This document shows, piece after piece, positions 7,485 through 33,562 of a stretch of DNA of 36,466 nucleotides. Position numbers and translations under genes: made by a program. Each line of letters begins with the position of its first letter. Within the stretch, counting starts at the first letter, position 1. The DNA lies in IMG/VR virus record IMGVR_UViG_3300042507_003149, positions 1 to 36,466 of that record; one strand, given 5' to 3'. This DNA comes from a virus. The notes below the pieces were generated by a model that was not told the DNA's origin, did no database searches, and was given only the letters and a program-made list of their open reading frames with translations.

Positions 7485-8024
7485 TTAACTGGCCGTAATA
7501 CTATCAATTTCAATTGAGTCATAAACTATGACAACTATAAAACTATTTAACAAGCTGCTATTTGTCATACTAAAGTTTATCGGTTGAATTACTTGTGGCC
7601 AGCATCCATTTAATATAAACGATTTTAAAGGCCTTTCTCCAACGGATTCTCCATTTATTCCTAAATGTTTTATTCTCCACCCATCCGCTTTGTATGTGCT
7701 GTTTCCTTTAATTTCTTGAGATATATTTGTGTCATGTTCATTTATAAGATTTTGCCACGATTGAAAAGCTTTCCACAAATTTACAGAATCTGTTCCATGA
7801 TCATCCAAAACAGTAAAGGACCAAGTACCATATTCCTTTTCTCCCGGGTAATGATATTTTCTTCCAAAATGTTCGTATGTTAAAGATTTTGCAGAAACTT
7901 GAGGTATTTGTGTACTTCTTATATGAAATTTATTGAACTGACCGCCCGGGAAAGTACCTTCTATTACAAATCTATTTTGGCGAGTTCCACCACTAAAATT
8001 TGTTTTAAATTCTGTTACTCCCAT
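7485..8024 (-). CDS. Tail tube protein paralogue (gp19 family)
   Basis: This 179-residue protein is clearly related to its upstream neighbour at 8035-8607. Both begin with FK..F.GGTR.NRF, share 'W.FTVLDD' / 'WTVTVYDD', then 'NLW..FQ.W', and end with a LG.NG...R...L..(G/A)WP block. T4 gp19 (163 residues) stacks in hexameric rings to make the inner tail tube. Having two adjacent copies at the gp19 position suggests a duplication, with one possibly forming a specialised end of the tube. A Shine-Dalgarno (GAGGA) precedes the ATG. Which copy is the main tube cannot be told here. Confidence 0.75.
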   Translation of the reverse strand: MGVTEFKTNFSGGTRQNRFVIEGTFPGGQFNKFHIRSTQIPQVSAKSLTYEHFGRKYHYPGEKEYGTWSFTVLDDHGTDSVNLWKAFQSWQNLINEHDTNISQEIKGNSTYKADGWRIKHLGINGESVGERPLKSFILNGCWPQVIQPINFSMTNSSLLNSFIVVIVYDSIEIDSITAS

Positions 8025-8034
8025 TTGTTATTCC

Positions 8035-8607
8035 TCAAGAAGGTGAAAGCGATTTGTCTATAGTATCATCACCATAAGATATATGATCAAACATAAATTG
8101 AACTCCAAATGAAACTGGATCTGATCCACTCATACTCAATTCAATTTGATATACTGAAAGTGGCCATGCTTTGTGCAATGTGATTGTTCTTATTATATTA
8201 CCATTTAATCCTAATTGCTGCAGTGTTATGTCTTTTTGGTGATTAGAATAAGAAAAATCTGTGCCGATATATTTATGGGTAACGTGACCATCCATCACTT
8301 CAACCCATTTTTGAAAAATATTCCAAAGATTTGAACTGCTGTTAGAATCATCATAAACTGTGACAGTCCAAGGAGAATATTGTCTATCTCCAGCATACAC
8401 AACTGGACGCCCTCTATATGACAGAGCAATAGTGTTTATTGTTGCCGTTGGGATACTTGTGGCAATAATTTTATATTGTGCTTGATTATTTCCATCGCCA
8501 GCACCTATATTAGATGGCCAAGTGCAACTAACCTTAAATCTGTTTGCTCTTGTTCCACCTTGAAATGCTGTTTTAAATGCGTATATACTATTATCGTTTG
8601 TTGCCAT
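8035..8607 (-). CDS. 19: Tail tube protein gp19
   Basis: The 190-residue product lies directly downstream of the sheath gene, as gp19 does in T4, and shows the tube-family pattern: FKTAFQGGTRANRFKV near the N-terminus, 'YAGDRQYSPWTVTVYDDS' near residue 70 and 'NLWNIFQKW' near residue 92. Its product should form the tube inside the contractile sheath. It is paralogous to the next gene (7485-8024). The ATG is preceded by an A-rich sequence rather than a clear Shine-Dalgarno. Symbol given by position and family; the neighbour is an equally possible tube. Confidence 0.75.
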   Translation of the reverse strand: MATNDNSIYAFKTAFQGGTRANRFKVSCTWPSNIGAGDGNNQAQYKIIATSIPTATINTIALSYRGRPVVYAGDRQYSPWTVTVYDDSNSSSNLWNIFQKWVEVMDGHVTHKYIGTDFSYSNHQKDITLQQLGLNGNIIRTITLHKAWPLSVYQIELSMSGSDPVSFGVQFMFDHISYGDDTIDKSLSPS

Positions 8608-20416: not shown

Positions 20417-21228
20417 TAAACCGCTCCATTTGATAGATAATTACTTGATATTTCCGACTTCGATAAAACTGCATTAAAGTTTGGATCATATGTTCCTGTT
20501 TCAAATTCTTGAAAAACTAAACCTAATAATGTTACGTTAGAATGCCCCGAAGGCAAAAATCTAACAACAGGATCTGCTGAGTCATTTCTTTTAACTGTTA
20601 CTGTTTTTAATACACAAACTAGAGGTTCACCTAAAAATTCTGCAGAAATTGAATTTGTTGTATTTCCAGTTGGCTGATTTCCAGAAAGTATGTCAATTGC
20701 CCATAAATTTTGAGGATACGATCTTTCTGGCAATTCTGATGCCAATGCTGGATATGAACTTTTTCTGAATGATCCGCAAATAGCGTCTACTTGATATGCT
20801 TCTTGTTCTGTTTTGGGTGTAAAAATATATTGAAATTCAAACTGTTTTCTACCTTCACTCACCATAGTCAATTCTGTGACATTGCTAAATCTTCTATAAG
20901 TTGATGTTGCAAATGTTTTTTCATAAAATACTGTGGCAGGTTGTGCGAGTCTTGCTAATAAATTTGTAAGACCACCACTATTTTGTATACCAGCCGCAGT
21001 TAATATTGGTGCGACTGGATTGTCATTATTTACACCATATTCGTGGGCTATTGTATAGCCAGGATCTCTAGGTAGTGGGAGTTTTATTCTTAACCCAGCC
21101 CTAGCTTTTACACTTTGTCTAGTTCTAAGCCCACTAATAAGACTATAGCTAGCACAATGGAACATCATCCATAAAGGCTGTTCAGCTGCATATGTTCCAA
21201 GTGGGTATTGATAAAAAGATTGTGGCAT
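20416..21228 (-). CDS. 48: Baseplate tail tube cap gp48
   Basis: I chose the ATG at 21228, giving 270 residues that begin 'MPQSFYQYPLGTYAAEQPLW'. The frame is open further upstream, but the extension would run antisense through gp4. The internal blocks 'LRIKLPLPRDPGYTIAHEYG' and 'FEFQYIFTPKTEQEAYQVDA' fit gp48, which caps the baseplate and starts tube polymerisation with gp54. T4 gp48 is 364 residues. The upstream GATAAATA box is five bases from this ATG and divergent to that of gp4. An alternative ATG at 21249 lies at and behind that box. Confidence 0.75.
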   Translation of the reverse strand: MPQSFYQYPLGTYAAEQPLWMMFHCASYSLISGLRTRQSVKARAGLRIKLPLPRDPGYTIAHEYGVNNDNPVAPILTAAGIQNSGGLTNLLARLAQPATVFYEKTFATSTYRRFSNVTELTMVSEGRKQFEFQYIFTPKTEQEAYQVDAICGSFRKSSYPALASELPERSYPQNLWAIDILSGNQPTGNTTNSISAEFLGEPLVCVLKTVTVKRNDSADPVVRFLPSGHSNVTLLGLVFQEFETGTYDPNFNAVLSKSEISSNYLSNGAV

Positions 21229-21259: not shown

Positions 21260-21676
21260 ATGGCATATAAAACTTGGTATAAACCAAAGAATTTAAAAAA
21301 ATATATTGGAAATACCAATAATATAGTTTGTAGATCCCTATGGGAACGAAATGTATGTAAATTTTTAGATGAAAATGAGAGTATAATAAAATGGTCTTCG
21401 GAGGAAATAGCAATACCATATACCCATCCAATAGATAAAAAGATACACAACTACTATCCTGATTTTATGATTCAGTTTAAAAATGAAACAGGAACCCATA
21501 CTTGGATACTTGAAATTAAACCAAAAAAGCAAACACTATTAAGAGAAAATGCTACTAAAACAGAAAAACTTATTTGGTCTGTAAATACTGCAAAATGGGA
21601 TGCTGAAAAATACTGTGAAAAAAACAATATTACATTTAAACTTTTAACAGAAAAAGAGTTATTTGCAAATGGCTGA
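21260..21676 (+). CDS. 4: Head completion protein gp4 with PD-(D/E)xK nuclease-like motif
   Basis: This 138-residue protein (T4 gp4: 150) matches the head completion family in 'YKPKNLKKYIGN' near the N-terminus, 'CRSLWERNVCKFLDENE' (24-40), 'NYYPDFMI' (D68) and 'WILEIKPKKQ' (E85, K87). The D...ExK arrangement, plus E29, is that of TnsA-like PD-(D/E)xK nucleases. T4 gp4 is needed to complete heads before tails join; the nuclease fold may trim DNA ends, but activity is inferred. It opens the plus-strand unit and its stop overlaps the gp54 start. Confidence 0.85.
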   Translation: MAYKTWYKPKNLKKYIGNTNNIVCRSLWERNVCKFLDENESIIKWSSEEIAIPYTHPIDKKIHNYYPDFMIQFKNETGTHTWILEIKPKKQTLLRENATKTEKLIWSVNTAKWDAEKYCEKNNITFKLLTEKELFANG

Positions 21677-22238
21677 TACAAATTCAATATTTACAATTAA
21701 AAATTATTTTTCAAGACACAATGGTCTGCAGAGAGTAAATAGATTTGACGTGTCTTTTGCTGGCCTTCCATCTGCAGCACAAGGAGAAATTGATTCAGAA
21801 AATTTTTATCCTGTTAATTATGCATCAATTGGTTCTAGACTAATAGACGGTATTGCAGATAATATGTCTGGTTATGGTTATGGAAGAATCCAACCAAGAT
21901 CACAAAAATTTTCTGGTGGCGTTCTTTTAGGTTTTGGAATAAGTAACGATAATCATATTTTAAAATTATTTCAAGCATGGTTTAATCATCTTTATTCTGG
22001 TGGAAGAGTTACAGGAGCAGTGAACAATAGATATACTGCCCAGTTTTATCATACTTCAGTATATCCAGCAACTATGACATTGCGTGCATTGGATCCTAAT
22101 GGAGTACCAAATAGCACATTTACTTTTTATGAAGTTATGCCAATAGAAACTCAGCCAATTGAATTTACCATGTTAAAAAGCAATGATTACCTTTCATATC
22201 AAGTTATAATAAATTTTAAAGAATACATACAATCTTAA
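21669..22238 (+). CDS. 54: Baseplate-tail tube initiator gp54-like
   Basis: The chosen start is the ATG at 21669 (MADTNS), which overlaps the end of gp4; an in-frame TTG two codons earlier is less likely. The 189-residue protein shares the tube-family pattern 'NYFSRHNGLQRVNRFDVSF' near the N-terminus and 'ILKLFQAWFNHLYS' at mid-length. Its place downstream of gp4 and upstream of gp26, and across from gp48, fits gp54, the ring on which gp19 polymerises. T4 gp54 is longer (320). It is one of four proteins of this fold in the window. Confidence 0.65.
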   Translation: MADTNSIFTIKNYFSRHNGLQRVNRFDVSFAGLPSAAQGEIDSENFYPVNYASIGSRLIDGIADNMSGYGYGRIQPRSQKFSGGVLLGFGISNDNHILKLFQAWFNHLYSGGRVTGAVNNRYTAQFYHTSVYPATMTLRALDPNGVPNSTFTFYEVMPIETQPIEFTMLKSNDYLSYQVIINFKEYIQS

Positions 22239-22242
22239 TATT

Positions 22243-22911
22243 ATGGACATTATTAAACAAATAAATGAATTTTTACCAACTTATTCTGTAAATTTGCCAT
22301 TCAGCAAAAAAGAAATATCATTTACTCCATTTAAAGTAAAAGATTTAAAAAACATTACAGTTGTACTGCAAGAAAATAATAAAAAACTTGCCTTTTTAGC
22401 GATGGTTGAAATATTAAAAAACAATTCTAAGATTACGGAGAAAGAATTGTTATCATTATCTCTAGCTGATGCCGAATATCTTTTTTTACAAATAAGAAGT
22501 AAAAGCGTAGAAGAGAATTTAAATTTAATTTACAACAATGAAAAAATTAAAATAAACATATTAGATGTAAAACACAAAAACTCAGTGCAATCAAAAACAT
22601 TTGATGTGTCTGAAAATATAAAAATTACTTTAGAAACTCCCACAGTAAAAAGCTTATTGGGATTAGAATCCTTTGATAAAGAAAATTTAATAAAAGCTTC
22701 TATTAGTAAAATAGTAATAAAAAATGAAATATACGATACAAATAAATTTGTTCCAGAAGAAATTAAAGAAATACTAAACAACCTTCCAATAAAATTTGTA
22801 TCAAATTTTGATACTTTTAGTAAAACTGATCCAGAATTATACGTAGAATTAAAAACTGAAACCGGAACCAAGGAGGTTTCCGGTATTTTAAATTTTTTTA
22901 TCTCTCGGTAA
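22243..22911 (+). CDS. 26: Baseplate hub assembly chaperone gp26-like (0-frame product)
   Basis: The 222-residue product has the gp26-type N-terminus (LPTYSVNLPFSKKEISFTPF, then KVKDLKNI) and helical blocks 'EILKNNSKITEKELLSLSLA' resembling phage tail/hub chaperones. T4 gp26 (208 residues) assists hub assembly and is not a structural protein. The gene follows gp54 by four bases. It ends '...GILNFFISR' just after a T7 run at 22893-22899; an extended form made by frameshifting is described separately. The family call is moderately sure, from sequence pattern and synteny. Confidence 0.7.
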   Translation: MDIIKQINEFLPTYSVNLPFSKKEISFTPFKVKDLKNITVVLQENNKKLAFLAMVEILKNNSKITEKELLSLSLADAEYLFLQIRSKSVEENLNLIYNNEKIKINILDVKHKNSVQSKTFDVSENIKITLETPTVKSLLGLESFDKENLIKASISKIVIKNEIYDTNKFVPEEIKEILNNLPIKFVSNFDTFSKTDPELYVELKTETGTKEVSGILNFFISR

Positions 22912-23099
22912 AGTTTTTTGATTTAGTCGATTACTATAAAACTAACTTTGCCTTTATAAACACATATAATTGGTCGTTGCATGATTTGGAAAACATGTTT
23001 TTTTGGGAAAGAGAAATATATACAAACATGTTAAATGAACACATAGAAGAAAAGAAACAACAAAAGGCCATGAGAATGGCAAGCAAAGGAATGATGTAA
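22243..23099 (+). CDS. gp26-gp51-like fusion produced by -1 frameshift (predicted 285 aa)
   Basis: If ribosomes slip back one base on T TTT TTT (22893-22899), residue 219 is followed by 66 more residues beginning 'YLSVKFFDLVDYYKTNFAFI' and ending '...ASKGMM' at a TAA (23097-23099). This extension lacks a convincing independent start: its first ATG would leave only 34 residues, yet the conserved-looking part ('NWSLHDLENMFFWEREIY') begins before it. It resembles the C-terminal segment found after gp26 in other T4-like phages. It fills the gap between gp26 and the next ATG exactly, leaving one base. A single-base indel is the alternative. Confidence 0.6.
22861..22915 (+). promoter_or_regulatory. 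Putative programmed -1 frameshift signal (hairpin, internal SD, T7 slip site)
   Basis: The slip site T_TTT_TTT is in frame (Asn-Phe-Phe codons). Upstream, ACCGGAA (22861-22867) can pair with TTCCGGT (22878-22884), leaving AAGGAGG in the loop as an internal Shine-Dalgarno 16 bases before the T7. Downstream, GTAAAGTT (22908-22915) can pair with AACTTTGC (22944-22951) with one wobble, eight bases after the slip site. The 0-frame stop follows ten bases after the T7. The upstream hairpin plus T-run could also act as a weak terminator. Confidence 0.5.
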
Positions 23100-23100
23100 T

Positions 23101-23592
23101 ATGGCTGATGAAAATAATACATTTTCTGTAGATGTTTCGGCAGAAACTAATGCGCTTGGTTCTAACTTAGATTATGAAGATATGGGGCCGTCAAAAACAA
23201 TTTTTTTACCAGATCTTGATCTTCCTGAATCAACTGTTTTTGATTTTATGAAAATTCCAGATTTGCCAAAATCAGTTCCACATGAATTTACAGAACAAAA
23301 TTTTGCATCATTAAAAGTTGAAGAACAACAAATAATTGGAGAAAATTATACAAGTGCTTTAAAAACAGAAATTAAAGATGATTTAGAAGATGCTACAGAA
23401 AAAATTAATCAAATGGAATCTCAGTTTGTTACCATGAACAATGGGATTAGAAATGCATTTGATGTAATGCAGGGAAATATAAAAAGACAATCTCAAAGAG
23501 ATAATTTTGAAGAAAGAATAACTGTATTACCTACCGATTTGATCTATGATAATAGAACACAGAGAGCTATGCAAGCTCCAGATTGGAGATAA
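23101..23592 (+). CDS. Unknown acidic protein downstream of gp26
   Basis: This 163-residue protein is not recognised. It is acidic in the first third, with Pro-containing 'FLPDLDLPESTVFDF' and 'MKIPDLPKSVPHEF', and has a helical, coiled-coil-like centre around residues 85-130 (TEIKDDLEDATEKINQMESQ). It starts one base after the frameshifted reading frame stops, so it is likely coupled to it. It is the last gene of the rightward late unit and ends at a strong terminator. The usual candidate at such a place would be a tape measure, but it is far too short; a hub or tail assembly protein is possible. Confidence 0.75.
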   Translation: MADENNTFSVDVSAETNALGSNLDYEDMGPSKTIFLPDLDLPESTVFDFMKIPDLPKSVPHEFTEQNFASLKVEEQQIIGENYTSALKTEIKDDLEDATEKINQMESQFVTMNNGIRNAFDVMQGNIKRQSQRDNFEERITVLPTDLIYDNRTQRAMQAPDWR

Positions 23593-23593
23593 A

Positions 23594-23621
23594 CAAAAAG
23601 GCCCCTTACGGGGCCTTTTTG
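23594..23621. terminator. Bidirectional terminator between convergent genes
   Basis: A 12-base-pair stem (CAAAAAGGCCCC / GGGGCCTTTTTG) with loop TTAC is flanked by A5 and T5, so it can stop transcription from both sides. It lies exactly between the plus-strand 163-residue gene and gp32, abutting the gp32 stop. Confidence 0.92.
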
Positions 23622-28153: not shown

Positions 28154-31100
28154 TTAAGGACACGATCCAGAACATGCATCCGGGCATGTTACGGTTGATG
28201 TATATACTGTTAATTTTTTAAGAACATTATTTTGATCTACAAGAAATTGTTGAACATATATTGATGCGTTAGTATTAACGTCACAATAATCTTCTAATGT
28301 TCCAGCAAACTGACCAGCATCTCCCGTAATTCCTCCCGGAAAAATAAATATTCCATCTCTATTTATTTTATGCCATTTTGTGGTTAATAACATTTCACTG
28401 TCTTTGGCATAGTTTCTTTGATCAGTTGCATCAAAAACTATTAAATTTTTAATTTCACATGTTAATGGTTTTGTTGGATTACCTTCATAAAAATCAGATC
28501 CGATATAATATGAATTGCCGCACAGATCTGATGCCCATCCCGTAGCTCCCGGAGGAGTTTCCGTTGGTCCTGCTGGTGTTTCGTAACAATATTTAAATGT
28601 CGATCCCGATTCATAACCAAAATTATTTGTTCCAATTAAATTATATGGTGTTTTTAATTGTGCATCTTTATTATACAAAAATATTCCTTGTTTTAATACA
28701 CCGGCCGACAAAGGACTATATTGATCTATTGTAGCAGTTGAAGGAAGTATACTCATTAGCCAACCACCCGGACCAAGAATTTTTGGCCCGGCAGAAGATG
28801 GATCATAAGGACATAAACTTTCAGAATTGGCTGGATTGCATCCCCCTATATCTCCATTTGCAGCGATACTGCCGTAAATTGCTGTATAATATGAACTTTC
28901 TAGTTTTCTTAATGAATCTCCACCAACATATACCAATGGATATTTTACATTTTTGTCATATGTCACTGATGCGGTAGATGCCATTTTTAATGTATTTGAA
29001 GCAAATCCCGTTCTATATGGATCTGGATTTTCTTTTATTTCCCAAACATTTGTGGTTTCATTTAATGCAAATGCCGTGTTTCTGGTAGCATATGTCGCAT
29101 AAGACAAATATGTTGATATAACAGAACAACAATTATTTTTTAATCCAAATATTTTATAAGATTGTAAAAAATAATCTTTTGTAGATCTAAACCCAACTCT
29201 ACCTATTGCTGATGTACATCTTTTAGCCAACCAAGGATAATTTGGTACTTTTCTTATTACTAATGTTCCTGAATCCGTGTCATCACAGTCAATTTGGCAT
29301 TCTTGTCCACCATCGGCATCTGGCATATAATCTTTTGGTATTGTGTTGATAGGTTGACTGTCTATCTGCCAACACAAATCATAATCAATCTGACAAGAAC
29401 TCAACATTCCTGCGCCAGCATTGTTGCCCTGTAAAGCACCACCGTCTCCACAAAATGGATTTGGAACTGTATCTCCCAAACATTTTGAATTTGGAGATTG
29501 ATATAAACCATTTCCGTATTGATATCTTCTTGCTCCTTTTTGCATCCACCAGTATTCTGGATGACCAGAATAAGACCAATTATCTTTTATTAATCCGCTT
29601 GAATCATTTGAATCTGGCTCACCTAGTACACTACACGGATCCAATGTTTCACACGTAGTTACACCCCCCGGTGCCCGTAATGTGTCCAATCCTTGACCAC
29701 ATGATTTTCCGTAAAACCATTTTGAAAAATCCCATCCACCGGGCAATCCTCTAAAGAATGCAAAACTCTTAAAATAATTTGGTAATGGTTTTCCATTTTG
29801 TGGAGAAAATTGATTTTTTCTTGTTTCTTCTAATTCAAATAAAGAGTAATCCCATTTTGGAAATTTTAAATTACCATATCCAATTGCTGCAACGTGACCA
29901 AAACCTGTTGCAATACCTTTATATCCAAAAGATGATTTATCTTCATCTTCGGTAGGAATAAAACCATAATCGTAATAATTTACATTATCAATATCATAAA
30001 CATGTTTTCTCGTCCACTGTATTGTTTCATAAGTTGGAAATGATGATATAAATGAATCTACATTATTATTGTTATCTTGAACTTTATAATTTACAATCCA
30101 ACAATTTGCTCCTGCAGAAATACTTATAACTTCTCCGGGTATTGTGGTACTATAAACTCCTGTTTCTTTTAAGCGCAAAAAATTAGGATCGTCTTCTACA
30201 TTTGATGGAGTCATATTTGGTAGCATTTCTACTCTGCCCCAAACATATAAAGTATTATCAGCAACCAACATTGTGTAATCTGGACCACCATCCAAAAAAC
30301 GAATATTTGCTGTTTGTGGTGTTACATTAGCACTGGTACATATATCTTCTGGATCATTGTTTCTAAATGTTAGTTCCCATTTTGCTGCAAGGTTTTTTAT
30401 TTCATCGGGAATAAATGTATCTACAATTGGACATAAAGTATTTGTGACAATATCCGTGTCACGATTTCCATCTTTATTAATTCTATAATAACTACCCCAC
30501 ATTTTAACTTGATTATCAGACTGAACTGCAATACTATGCATTTGACCGCAGCCAACTTTACTCCATACTGGTCTATCTAATGTTGCGTATTGTAGATTAT
30601 TAAAAAGACTACATCTTACATCAGAATTTGGATCATTTGGATTATTAAAATTACAATTTAAACTATAAGTTCCATTTATATATCTCTGCCATTCAGTGTC
30701 TGTAAAATAACCCGGTTTTGCCATTGGCGCATACGCAGTTCTATTTGCTGGATAATTATTTGGCAAAGGAGGAGCTTGATCATTTGTGTTATCTCCTTTA
30801 AAAAACAAAAGAAAATTATCGTATTCTGTCTCATCTGGATTTATACTGCCAGTAGATATTGCTGCTACGTGATAGGAACCAGAAGCAGCATCAACCCATT
30901 TTTCTTGTTTGTTATAAAATTTTGATTCTATATTATCTGGATCGGCCTCGCCTTTAAATACTCCGTTACATTTAAATTCTCCCCATGCAATTATTCTACT
31001 ATATTCTGATGGGTTTGACGGTGACGGTGCAGCACTATTATCACCCCCGTTATATAAATCACAACCAGTTGTTACATAAGGATCTATAAAATTATAACCA

Positions 31101-33562
31101 TTTGAAAAATTTACAAGAGCAATTGCTAATTTTGTACTTTTAATAGATACTTTTTTTACTCTCCCATATGGGGTGTAATCTCTTTCAGCTTGTCTTATTG
31201 CTTCTTCTTCTGGTGGGATGCTTATAGATCCCGGTGGAATTAAATTATTACCGTCAGAATAACCACTACCTAAAATTTGACCGCTATCCAATAACCAGTA
31301 ATTTGTATGCATACCAGAAAAAACATCAACATATTTTCCTTTTGTCCATTCAGTTTCTGGAAAAAATACTGGATTTGCAGATGGGTTACTATATCCGTCA
31401 CATGGTGACGGACCTATTTGTTCATCATCCTGATCAATTACTGGCCTACATCCCCAACCAACCAAGTCTCCACTTTGTAAATATGGTGGTAAAAATGATC
31501 TTCTTGGAAATCTAAAATAAGATTGTGGGCCGGGAATTTGTATTCCAGCACAATCAACACCAACCTCGGTATTTCCTGTTTCAGGATCAATTAAATATTG
31601 TTTTACTTGGTTTACTGTAACTTTTCCTGTTATTGGTTGTACACCAAAAAAGTTTACTAAATCCATGTATCCGGTAACACCGCCAACTACACCATCAACA
31701 TATGGATTTAATTTTAATTCTTGCTCTTGTGTTGTTTGATTTGTTACATATTTTGCAGAAGCAATTACTTCATTAATTTCATCAACAATATCTGGAGCAT
31801 GATCTTTGATCGCCAAAACATTGTATCTTATCATTTCTTTTAAAGCTGCAATAACATAATCATAATCATTTTTTATTGTTTCAAACAGATGTATTGGTTC
31901 ATACTGAAGTGTTCCGGTTTTCATTGAACCGTCGCAAGGATCTATAAAAATATATTTACCTTGAACTACTGTGTAAAAATAATTGTAATATGCTTTTAAA
32001 AATAGTTTTGCATCAAATGTTTTAGCATTAATTAAAATATTTTTTTGTTTTGATAAAAGTTCAAAATAATATAAATCATGGTGAAATAATGGAACCTTTG
32101 CACCACCATACATAAATCTTCTTGGAGTTTTTCTATATAGTTGCCATTTTAAATTGCTGTCATTATCTGCTGTAAAATTACCACAACCACTTGTAGTATT
32201 AAAAGAACCGCCATAAGGTTTTTCAAATTTACCTCTCAAGACATCAGCATGATTTTGTACAGCTTCAATTTTTGGTGCTCTCAAATCATCTGATTTATAT
32301 GCATATGATTCAAAATGATGTTCTAGTCCAACAAAACCAACTAAAACATTTTGCAATTTTGTTAACTGTGATACATCTCTATAATTTATATTGTAATCAA
32401 ACCAATAACCAATTTCATTAAAATCAGTAACATAATATGATGTTCCAAAATTTTGTTTATTTTTTAATGGTCCACCATACGTCCATATATCAAATCCGAT
32501 TTTATAATCTGATTTAGATATTCTTTTTAAATAAGGTGATATTCCATATTCATAACAAGATTCTTTATAGTTTTTATTTACAAGAGAATTGGTTGAATTT
32601 GATCCGGGAGTACACATTACTCCTGCTGCACCACCATTGAACCATGCACGCCATGATAAAGGTGTTTGTGGCCATAATGGAGAACCATTTCTATTGAATG
32701 CACCTTGTCTTGTATTTGCACAGTAACAACATCCGGCTTCATTATAAAGCATTCCCGGACTAAAAACATCCATATATGGAATATATCCAAATTGTCCTTC
32801 AGTTTGATTTATATTTGGAATTTTGTACAATGTTCCATATATTCCATCTCTTATGTGGGGAACTTGTCTACAATAACATGGCCACAATGGCCAGCTACCT
32901 CTGGGGTTTTCAGCACCACCACCACAGGCTGGATCAAAAATTGCTCCGTCCTGTGAGCCCAATGGAGAAAAATTTGCATAATCTGGATGGCATGATGCAA
33001 CATTTCCAGTTATATCGTTTTCAAATTCTTCTCTTACTATTAATCCTTTGCATTGGCTTATGTTTGGGTTGTTTCCAAAAGCAAATTCCGGCGGATACCA
33101 AATTAAATGGCACCCAGTATGTCTGTACATGATGCTGAAAGGATCGGTTCCGGGGACTCCTCTTGGATGATATAATACTTGTCTACAACCATCTTCACAT
33201 TCTGGTAGATCGCTGTTAACACCACTGCTTGTATCTGATGTTTGCTGTTCTTGTTGGCCTATATCTCCACCACTGGCTCTATAAATTGGTGTAGATCCAC
33301 CACCAGAGTTTTCATCACATAAATTTTCACAATACTCACCACACTCAGCACAATAATTTAAAGATTCAATCTGACATTCTGGATTATAATTATCCAAACA
33401 AATTTGGCTAAGTCCTTTTTCTTTTAAACATTTTTCACAACGATATCCTACAATATCTTTTGCTTGTTTGCTTTTGCTATCAACAGTATTTTCTATAATA
33501 TTTTTCTTTTTAAAAATATTATTAATAGAAGAAAAGGTATTTTTTATAATTGTTTTTTTCAT
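28154..33562 (-). CDS. Giant virion-like protein with Cys-rich N-terminus and RCC1-like repeats
   Basis: At 1802 residues this is the largest gene in the window. The N-terminus has eight Cys in a ribbon-like run (about residues 42-82: 'GYRCEKCLKEKG', 'NYCAECGEYCENLC'). RCC1-type beta-propeller signatures recur between about residues 750 and 1230: 'VFSGMHTNYWLLDSGQI', 'AASGSYHVAAIS', 'VGCGQMHSIAVQSDNQVKMW', 'LDGGPDYTMLVADNTLYVW' and 'IATGFGHVAAIGYG'. More Cys pairs run to the end (TCPDACSGSCP). Such propellers bind proteins or DNA in eukaryotes; in phages they occur in large structural proteins. A fibre or baseplate accessory role is inferred. No signal peptide is evident. Confidence 0.7.
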   Translation of the reverse strand: MKKTIIKNTFSSINNIFKKKNIIENTVDSKSKQAKDIVGYRCEKCLKEKGLSQICLDNYNPECQIESLNYCAECGEYCENLCDENSGGGSTPIYRASGGDIGQQEQQTSDTSSGVNSDLPECEDGCRQVLYHPRGVPGTDPFSIMYRHTGCHLIWYPPEFAFGNNPNISQCKGLIVREEFENDITGNVASCHPDYANFSPLGSQDGAIFDPACGGGAENPRGSWPLWPCYCRQVPHIRDGIYGTLYKIPNINQTEGQFGYIPYMDVFSPGMLYNEAGCCYCANTRQGAFNRNGSPLWPQTPLSWRAWFNGGAAGVMCTPGSNSTNSLVNKNYKESCYEYGISPYLKRISKSDYKIGFDIWTYGGPLKNKQNFGTSYYVTDFNEIGYWFDYNINYRDVSQLTKLQNVLVGFVGLEHHFESYAYKSDDLRAPKIEAVQNHADVLRGKFEKPYGGSFNTTSGCGNFTADNDSNLKWQLYRKTPRRFMYGGAKVPLFHHDLYYFELLSKQKNILINAKTFDAKLFLKAYYNYFYTVVQGKYIFIDPCDGSMKTGTLQYEPIHLFETIKNDYDYVIAALKEMIRYNVLAIKDHAPDIVDEINEVIASAKYVTNQTTQEQELKLNPYVDGVVGGVTGYMDLVNFFGVQPITGKVTVNQVKQYLIDPETGNTEVGVDCAGIQIPGPQSYFRFPRRSFLPPYLQSGDLVGWGCRPVIDQDDEQIGPSPCDGYSNPSANPVFFPETEWTKGKYVDVFSGMHTNYWLLDSGQILGSGYSDGNNLIPPGSISIPPEEEAIRQAERDYTPYGRVKKVSIKSTKLAIALVNFSNGYNFIDPYVTTGCDLYNGGDNSAAPSPSNPSEYSRIIAWGEFKCNGVFKGEADPDNIESKFYNKQEKWVDAASGSYHVAAISTGSINPDETEYDNFLLFFKGDNTNDQAPPLPNNYPANRTAYAPMAKPGYFTDTEWQRYINGTYSLNCNFNNPNDPNSDVRCSLFNNLQYATLDRPVWSKVGCGQMHSIAVQSDNQVKMWGSYYRINKDGNRDTDIVTNTLCPIVDTFIPDEIKNLAAKWELTFRNNDPEDICTSANVTPQTANIRFLDGGPDYTMLVADNTLYVWGRVEMLPNMTPSNVEDDPNFLRLKETGVYSTTIPGEVISISAGANCWIVNYKVQDNNNNVDSFISSFPTYETIQWTRKHVYDIDNVNYYDYGFIPTEDEDKSSFGYKGIATGFGHVAAIGYGNLKFPKWDYSLFELEETRKNQFSPQNGKPLPNYFKSFAFFRGLPGGWDFSKWFYGKSCGQGLDTLRAPGGVTTCETLDPCSVLGEPDSNDSSGLIKDNWSYSGHPEYWWMQKGARRYQYGNGLYQSPNSKCLGDTVPNPFCGDGGALQGNNAGAGMLSSCQIDYDLCWQIDSQPINTIPKDYMPDADGGQECQIDCDDTDSGTLVIRKVPNYPWLAKRCTSAIGRVGFRSTKDYFLQSYKIFGLKNNCCSVISTYLSYATYATRNTAFALNETTNVWEIKENPDPYRTGFASNTLKMASTASVTYDKNVKYPLVYVGGDSLRKLESSYYTAIYGSIAANGDIGGCNPANSESLCPYDPSSAGPKILGPGGWLMSILPSTATIDQYSPLSAGVLKQGIFLYNKDAQLKTPYNLIGTNNFGYESGSTFKYCYETPAGPTETPPGATGWASDLCGNSYYIGSDFYEGNPTKPLTCEIKNLIVFDATDQRNYAKDSEMLLTTKWHKINRDGIFIFPGGITGDAGQFAGTLEDYCDVNTNASIYVQQFLVDQNNVLKKLTVYTSTVTCPDACSGSCP

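Follow-up and report, generated by a model that had tools for sequence, protein, structure and literature searches.

The question raised by this locus is whether the gene of a T4-type gp26 hub chaperone gives one product or two, the longer one being formed by ribosomes that slip into an overlapping −1 frame just ahead of the gp26 stop codon. The window is the entire record of an uncultured virus (36,466 bases; the record may be a fragment), and a single gp26 match was found within it. The gp26 ORF (TAC-N; positions 22243..22911, plus strand) encodes a short product of 222 aa and its 3′ end reads AAT TTT TTT ATC TCT CGG TAA, so that the plus-strand slippery heptamer T TTT TTT (22893..22899) is in phase with gp26, the first T being codon position 3. 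Nine bases (22900-22908) separate the heptamer from the stop codon (22909-22911), and not ten, as was stated in the initial annotation. The −1 frame extension (gp51, or TAC-C; 22899..23099, plus strand) comprises 66 codons and a TAA (23097-23099) that ends one base short of the ATG at 23101, and would form the C-terminal part of a long product of 285 aa. Upstream of the conserved YY motif of the gp51 core, the −1 frame of the window contains no ATG, GTG or TTG. The sequence thus agrees with the initial annotation in the in-phase heptamer, the coordinates of the 66-codon frame up to the TAA one base before the next ATG and the want of a good start; recomputation of the two predicted products returned the same 222 and 219 + 66 = 285 residues.

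Profile searches clearly assign both parts of the locus to T4-type families. The short product matches Pfam family PF12322 T4_baseplate (1.3e-25; 90.9 bits vs. the curated cut-off of 24.5, residues 12-219) and phrog_150 (7.6e-24), and is about 24% identical to cyanophage gp26; a weak match to Phage_TAC_7 was also found (E 0.035). Residues 8-61 of the extension match phrog_634 'baseplate hub assembly catalyst' (E 1.7e-18) and, on this family assignment, the 66-residue extension is gp51 itself. The initial annotation had called it conserved-looking; identities to its relatives are 44-71%. The −1 frame of the extension is stop-free, its third codon positions are the most variable, and synonymous differences are far commoner in it than in the other two frames. 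The AlphaFold2 model of gp26 has a pLDDT of 91; the best realigned PDB match to this model is 3FGX (Z 6.7, rmsd 5.3, 89 residues), and the second, at Z 5.8 (rmsd 4.3, 87 residues, over residues 1-89), is 2OB9, a tail assembly chaperone of HK97, both under the caution level of Z 8. These matches of the predicted structure are below the level where fold alone would decide; Foldseek alone found nothing at E <= 0.001 with the gp26 model, and comparison of the gp26 sequence with the PDB gave chance-level matches only.

The gene of a tail assembly chaperone (TAC) is expected between those of the tail tube and the tape measure, and the upstream side of the locus agrees with this. Directly upstream of gp26 lies a gene for a tail-tube-like protein (21663..22238, plus strand; phrog_45 tail tube, 1.4e-10), a typical TAC neighbour; a tube-like gene occupies the same place in close relatives, in KVP40 and in P-SSM2, and in lambda-type tail operons the tail-tube gene likewise adjoins the chaperone gene. 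The gene directly after gp51 (23101-23592) encodes a 163-aa protein that the profile searches assigned to no family; it has weak homologs (26-35% identity) in the same place in close relatives and is possibly tail or tape-measure-associated. In the Caulobacter phage Cr30, about 250 nt, with one small ORF, separate gp51 from the start of an annotated tape-measure gene. Elsewhere in the window, two adjacent ORFs of similar size on the minus strand (7485-8607) resemble tail-tube paralogs by eye, and another minus-strand gene (28154-33562) encodes a structural-looking protein of 1802 aa with RCC1-like repeats (PF25390, 8e-9, below the curated cut-off), which is unusual for a phage protein.

The DNA-level search of phage records with positions 21600-23620 gave no match, and a single-sequence search of viral contigs with gp26 found no relatives. 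The gp51 extension as query found 14 viral contigs and an alignment of extensions found 80 more; the records of KVP40, P-SSM2, S-CAM1 and DLP6 were added to this set. In every locus where both domains were recognised (98/98), gp51 lies in −1 with respect to the gp26 frame. After removal of duplicates, T TTT TTN is present in all 87 distinct junctions (N is C in 61, T in 20, A in four and G in two), a figure that is not to be multiplied into a probability, since codon usage favours T at both wobble positions (0.82 and 0.78) and the loci are related. The conservation of the T run and of the offset frame, which the initial annotation had proposed as a check, is thereby confirmed. The T run starts at codon position 3 in 87/87 junctions, and at 20,711 other codon sites of the same gp26 genes an in-phase T TTT TTN occurs 21 times. 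Each of the 87 junctions has 13 codons between the heptamer and the conserved gp51 core, while the gp26 stop lies 0, 3, 9 or 18 nt 3′ of the heptamer; since the spacing is fixed and the stop shifts, the heptamer and gp51 behave as one coding unit. The stronger evidence from these sequence comparisons lies in the constancy of phase and spacing and in the contrast with T4, described below.

The T7 was also considered as a rare motif, and this was rejected: the window contains 29 of them vs. 67 expected from its dinucleotides, and as T7 is unremarkable in an AT-rich window, the claim rests on conservation. A second in-phase heptamer, T TTT TTA, is found in gp26 at 22482-22488, where a −1 slip would lead to a stop after six codons; a heptamer alone is therefore weak evidence.

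The best surviving of the other explanations, which we nevertheless consider very unlikely, is that reinitiation or coupled initiation close to the gp26 stop yields gp51 as a small protein of its own, the T run reflecting nothing but a conserved Phe-Phe. In KVP40, P-SSM2, DLP6 and others, an ATG is found at the gp26 stop or immediately after it and the annotation follows this reading, Cygsa01 has TAATG and no heptamer, and the SD-like element discussed below might serve initiation; reinitiation could also play a part in roughly half of the relatives, where an ATG lies near the junction. However, 42 of the 87 junctions contain no ATG ahead of the core, and 23, including that of the window, contain no ATG, GTG or TTG at all; where an ATG is present, the same position is V, L or I in other relatives, and both the similarity in the −1 frame and the 13-codon spacing extend back to the heptamer. 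The protein sequence alone does not require the heptamer either, because T4 gp26 keeps Phe-Phe as TTC TTT. Six junctions, in which the second zero-frame residue is Leu (TTA or TTG), still keep the heptamer.

Candidate stimulatory elements of a ribosomal frameshift are present on both sides of the heptamer. A Shine-Dalgarno-like AAGGAGG (22870..22876, plus strand), located inside gp26 16 nt upstream of the heptamer, is the probable 5′ stimulator. Its GAGG portion is at the same place in 12/12 close relatives of the window; the GAGG is 16 nt upstream of the heptamer in the window's group and 10 nt upstream in most groups, and the longer distance counts somewhat against the element here. The Glu codon concerned is GAG in 54/62 junctions of the other groups and in 12/12 of the window's group, compared to 28% elsewhere in gp26, and the enrichment over codon usage, calculated on cluster representatives, is significant (p 2e-6 and 4e-5, respectively). 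The initial annotation placed AAGGAGG in the loop of an upstream hairpin; the hairpin exists in the window (22861..22885, plus strand), but inspection of the relatives indicated that its pairing is not kept, and it was rejected as a conserved element.

The downstream stem was already noticed in the initial annotation, but the description of it as weak did not hold. Its plus-strand arms, at 22907..22915 (5′) and 22944..22952 (3′), are supported by folding and covariation and form nine base pairs (−11.8 kcal/mol, z −3.3); the 5′ arm follows the heptamer after a 7-nt spacer and contains the gp26 stop codon. RNAalifold applied to all groups together found no consensus structure; the stems differ between groups, and covariation was tested group by group. 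In the 12 sequences of the window's group, 88% of the cells are paired, and the covariation score is reached by 0/500 shuffles and lies above all slid registers, although the stem folds poorly in five of the 12 (L005, L007, L008, L022 and L024). The P-SSM2-like phages contain a different, 11-bp hairpin, in which 85.5% of the cells are paired and covariation again exceeds the shuffles and slid registers, in a set of 20 sequences that were picked for their resemblance to P-SSM2, which biases the test towards structure. The downstream RNA of 35 cluster representatives folds better than codon-preserving resamples, with a mean z of −1.6 (p 4e-5); for the window's group, p is 0.03. Escherichia coli dnaX has the same arrangement of an internal SD, a slippery heptamer and a downstream stem-loop, and its SD is about 10 nt upstream of the heptamer. 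Unlike in the window, the heptamer of dnaX is A AAA AAG and frameshifting yields a shorter product (PMC5009743).

Slippage of the RNA polymerase on the T run, whereby mRNAs lacking one base would encode the fusion in a single frame, is less probable still. Such slippage can occur at T runs in bacteria (PMC5009743), but the runs in question consist of six T in 67/87 junctions and of eight at most, vs. nine As or Ts in the bacterial example (PMC5009743); moreover, the start at codon position 3 matters for tRNA re-pairing and not for the polymerase, and an SD-like element and a downstream stem are stimulators of the ribosome. The least credible explanation, that a sequencing or assembly error in an error-prone homopolymer of an uncultured virus fragment has split one continuous gene, is contradicted by the relatives: the −1 relation and the heptamer, mostly as TTTTTTC, recur in 98 loci, which come both from finished genomes of phages and from contigs obtained independently.

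The 2022 abstract of Vladimirov and colleagues reportedly notes that several T4-like groups have retained frameshifting, and that T4 relies on genes 26 and 51. Both T4 gp26 (208 aa) and T4 gp51 (249 aa) are PF12322/phrog_150 proteins, and the end of T4 gp51 matches phrog_634 and, at 210-246, the profile of the extensions, which was built without the T4 sequence. As T4 gp26 is the domain alone, like the short form of the window, and T4 gp51 combines this domain with the extension, T4 has one gene for the short form and another for the long one. Unlike in the window, these are two separate genes without a slippery heptamer, T4 gp26 ending in GAG TTC TTT GAG. Phages KIT01, JK32, Ac42 and 50AhydR13PP, as T4, have a separate full-length gp51 and no heptamer, and five further divergent phages (65.2, SRB7757, Cr30, OC and Melnitz) have the heptamer with gp51 in the −1 frame. 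The window has the heptamer and, with a single gp26 match in a record that may be a fragment, does not show the T-even arrangement of separate genes 26 and 51, in which the heptamer is lost.

The one exception is Pseudomonas phage Cygsa01 (L108, 772-1682), where gp26 ends in AGC ATT TTC ACC TAA, the heptamer is gone and the ATG of gp51 overlaps the stop; a switch from frameshifting to reinitiation is possible in this phage. In GenBank, gp51 is unannotated in S-CAM1 (L018, about 1462-1671) and in Aeromonas phage 65.2 (L103, after 1890), and it is annotated with a truncated start in Ochrobactrum phage OC (L110, 1899-2075), probably because it has no proper start codon.

Taken together, the locus very probably specifies two forms of a T4-type tail assembly chaperone, by means of −1 slippage on T TTT TTT, as the sequence comparisons indicate. 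The programmed frameshift with two products, as suggested in the initial annotation, is supported by the frame, the phase, the spacing and the missing start, and also by the SD-like element, the covarying stem and the loss of the heptamer where gp51 belongs to a separate gene. Most ribosomes would terminate at 22909 and produce gp26 (TAC-N, 222 aa). A minority would stall at the downstream stem with the tRNAs of TTT TTT in the P and A sites, the internal SD-like AAGGAGG probably aiding the stalling or the slippage; a slip of one base backwards on T TTT TTT would then bypass the stop, and translation of the gp51 domain would give the 285-aa gp26-gp51 fusion (TAC-NC). In E. coli constructs, U UUU UUU promotes slippage less strongly than A AAA AAG does (PMC5009743), which speaks against the proposal but fits a minor long product.

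The gp26 and gp26-gp51 products would therefore make up a TAC-N/TAC-NC pair of the lambda G/GT type. The lambda proteins belong to a different sequence family, and the lambda slippery sequence differs from T TTT TTT. The likeness to gpG/gpGT consists in a short chaperone, a −1 frameshifted long form and an adjacent tail-tube gene (PMC5009743). By analogy with gpG/gpGT (reviewed in PMC5009743), many short and few long copies may coat the tape measure, and the extension may recruit the tail-tube subunits. The TAC locus of phage Adele and other Vandenendeviridae/Andersonviridae has a −1 frameshift where TAC-N ends, at the T-rich motif GTTTTT, and its C-terminal part is annotated as a separate gene (PMC12846349); those are different phage families, and their likeness to the window, as compared here, concerns the frameshift arrangement.

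The initial annotation knew of no such case for T4-type gp26, which is contradicted by the study of Vladimirov, Gautam and Davidson (2022, Virology 566:9-15, pmid 34826709), who, according to the passages of PMC10885494 and PMC12846349 that cite it, identified the T4-like TAC genes. With reference to that study, the PRFect paper (PMC10885494) mentions that some T4-like phages have a short gene plus a long fusion gene; poly-T frameshift signals in T4-like TAC-N genes are mentioned in the Adele paper (PMC12846349). As far as these citing passages describe them, the published T4-like TAC-N/TAC-NC have the same two domains as found here, gp26 and gp51, and the window differs in representing an uncultured, divergent group that uses T TTT TTT. 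It is well supported by the sequence similarities that the locus of the window is a further, divergent example of the known T4-like TAC frameshifting and not a new phenomenon. The principle being already published, the gain consists in breadth and in the anatomy of the stimulators; the latter, comprising the SD-like element and the stem, may be undescribed so far. A more general reading, which we put forward tentatively and rate somewhat short of an even chance, is that the T4-like TAC frameshift depends on a conserved three-part signal common to cyanophages and uncultured relatives. It would be made up of U UUU UUN, an internal SD-like GAGG placed 10-16 nt ahead of it and, 5-8 nt beyond it, a covarying stem that either includes the stop or comes directly after it; in T-even phages, duplication of the gene into a short and a long copy would have taken the place of this signal.

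In the T4-like phage records examined, the small 'gp51' is either overlooked or annotated as a protein of its own; it would instead be the C-terminal half of a tail chaperone made by frameshifting, and annotators can find it by a simple rule, the occurrence of T TTT TTN shortly before gp26 ends. The comparison also lends support to the descent of T4 genes 26 and 51, as a split pair, from a single frameshifted ancestor, and the classical 'hub assembly catalyst' would thus be recast as the T4 equivalent of lambda GT.
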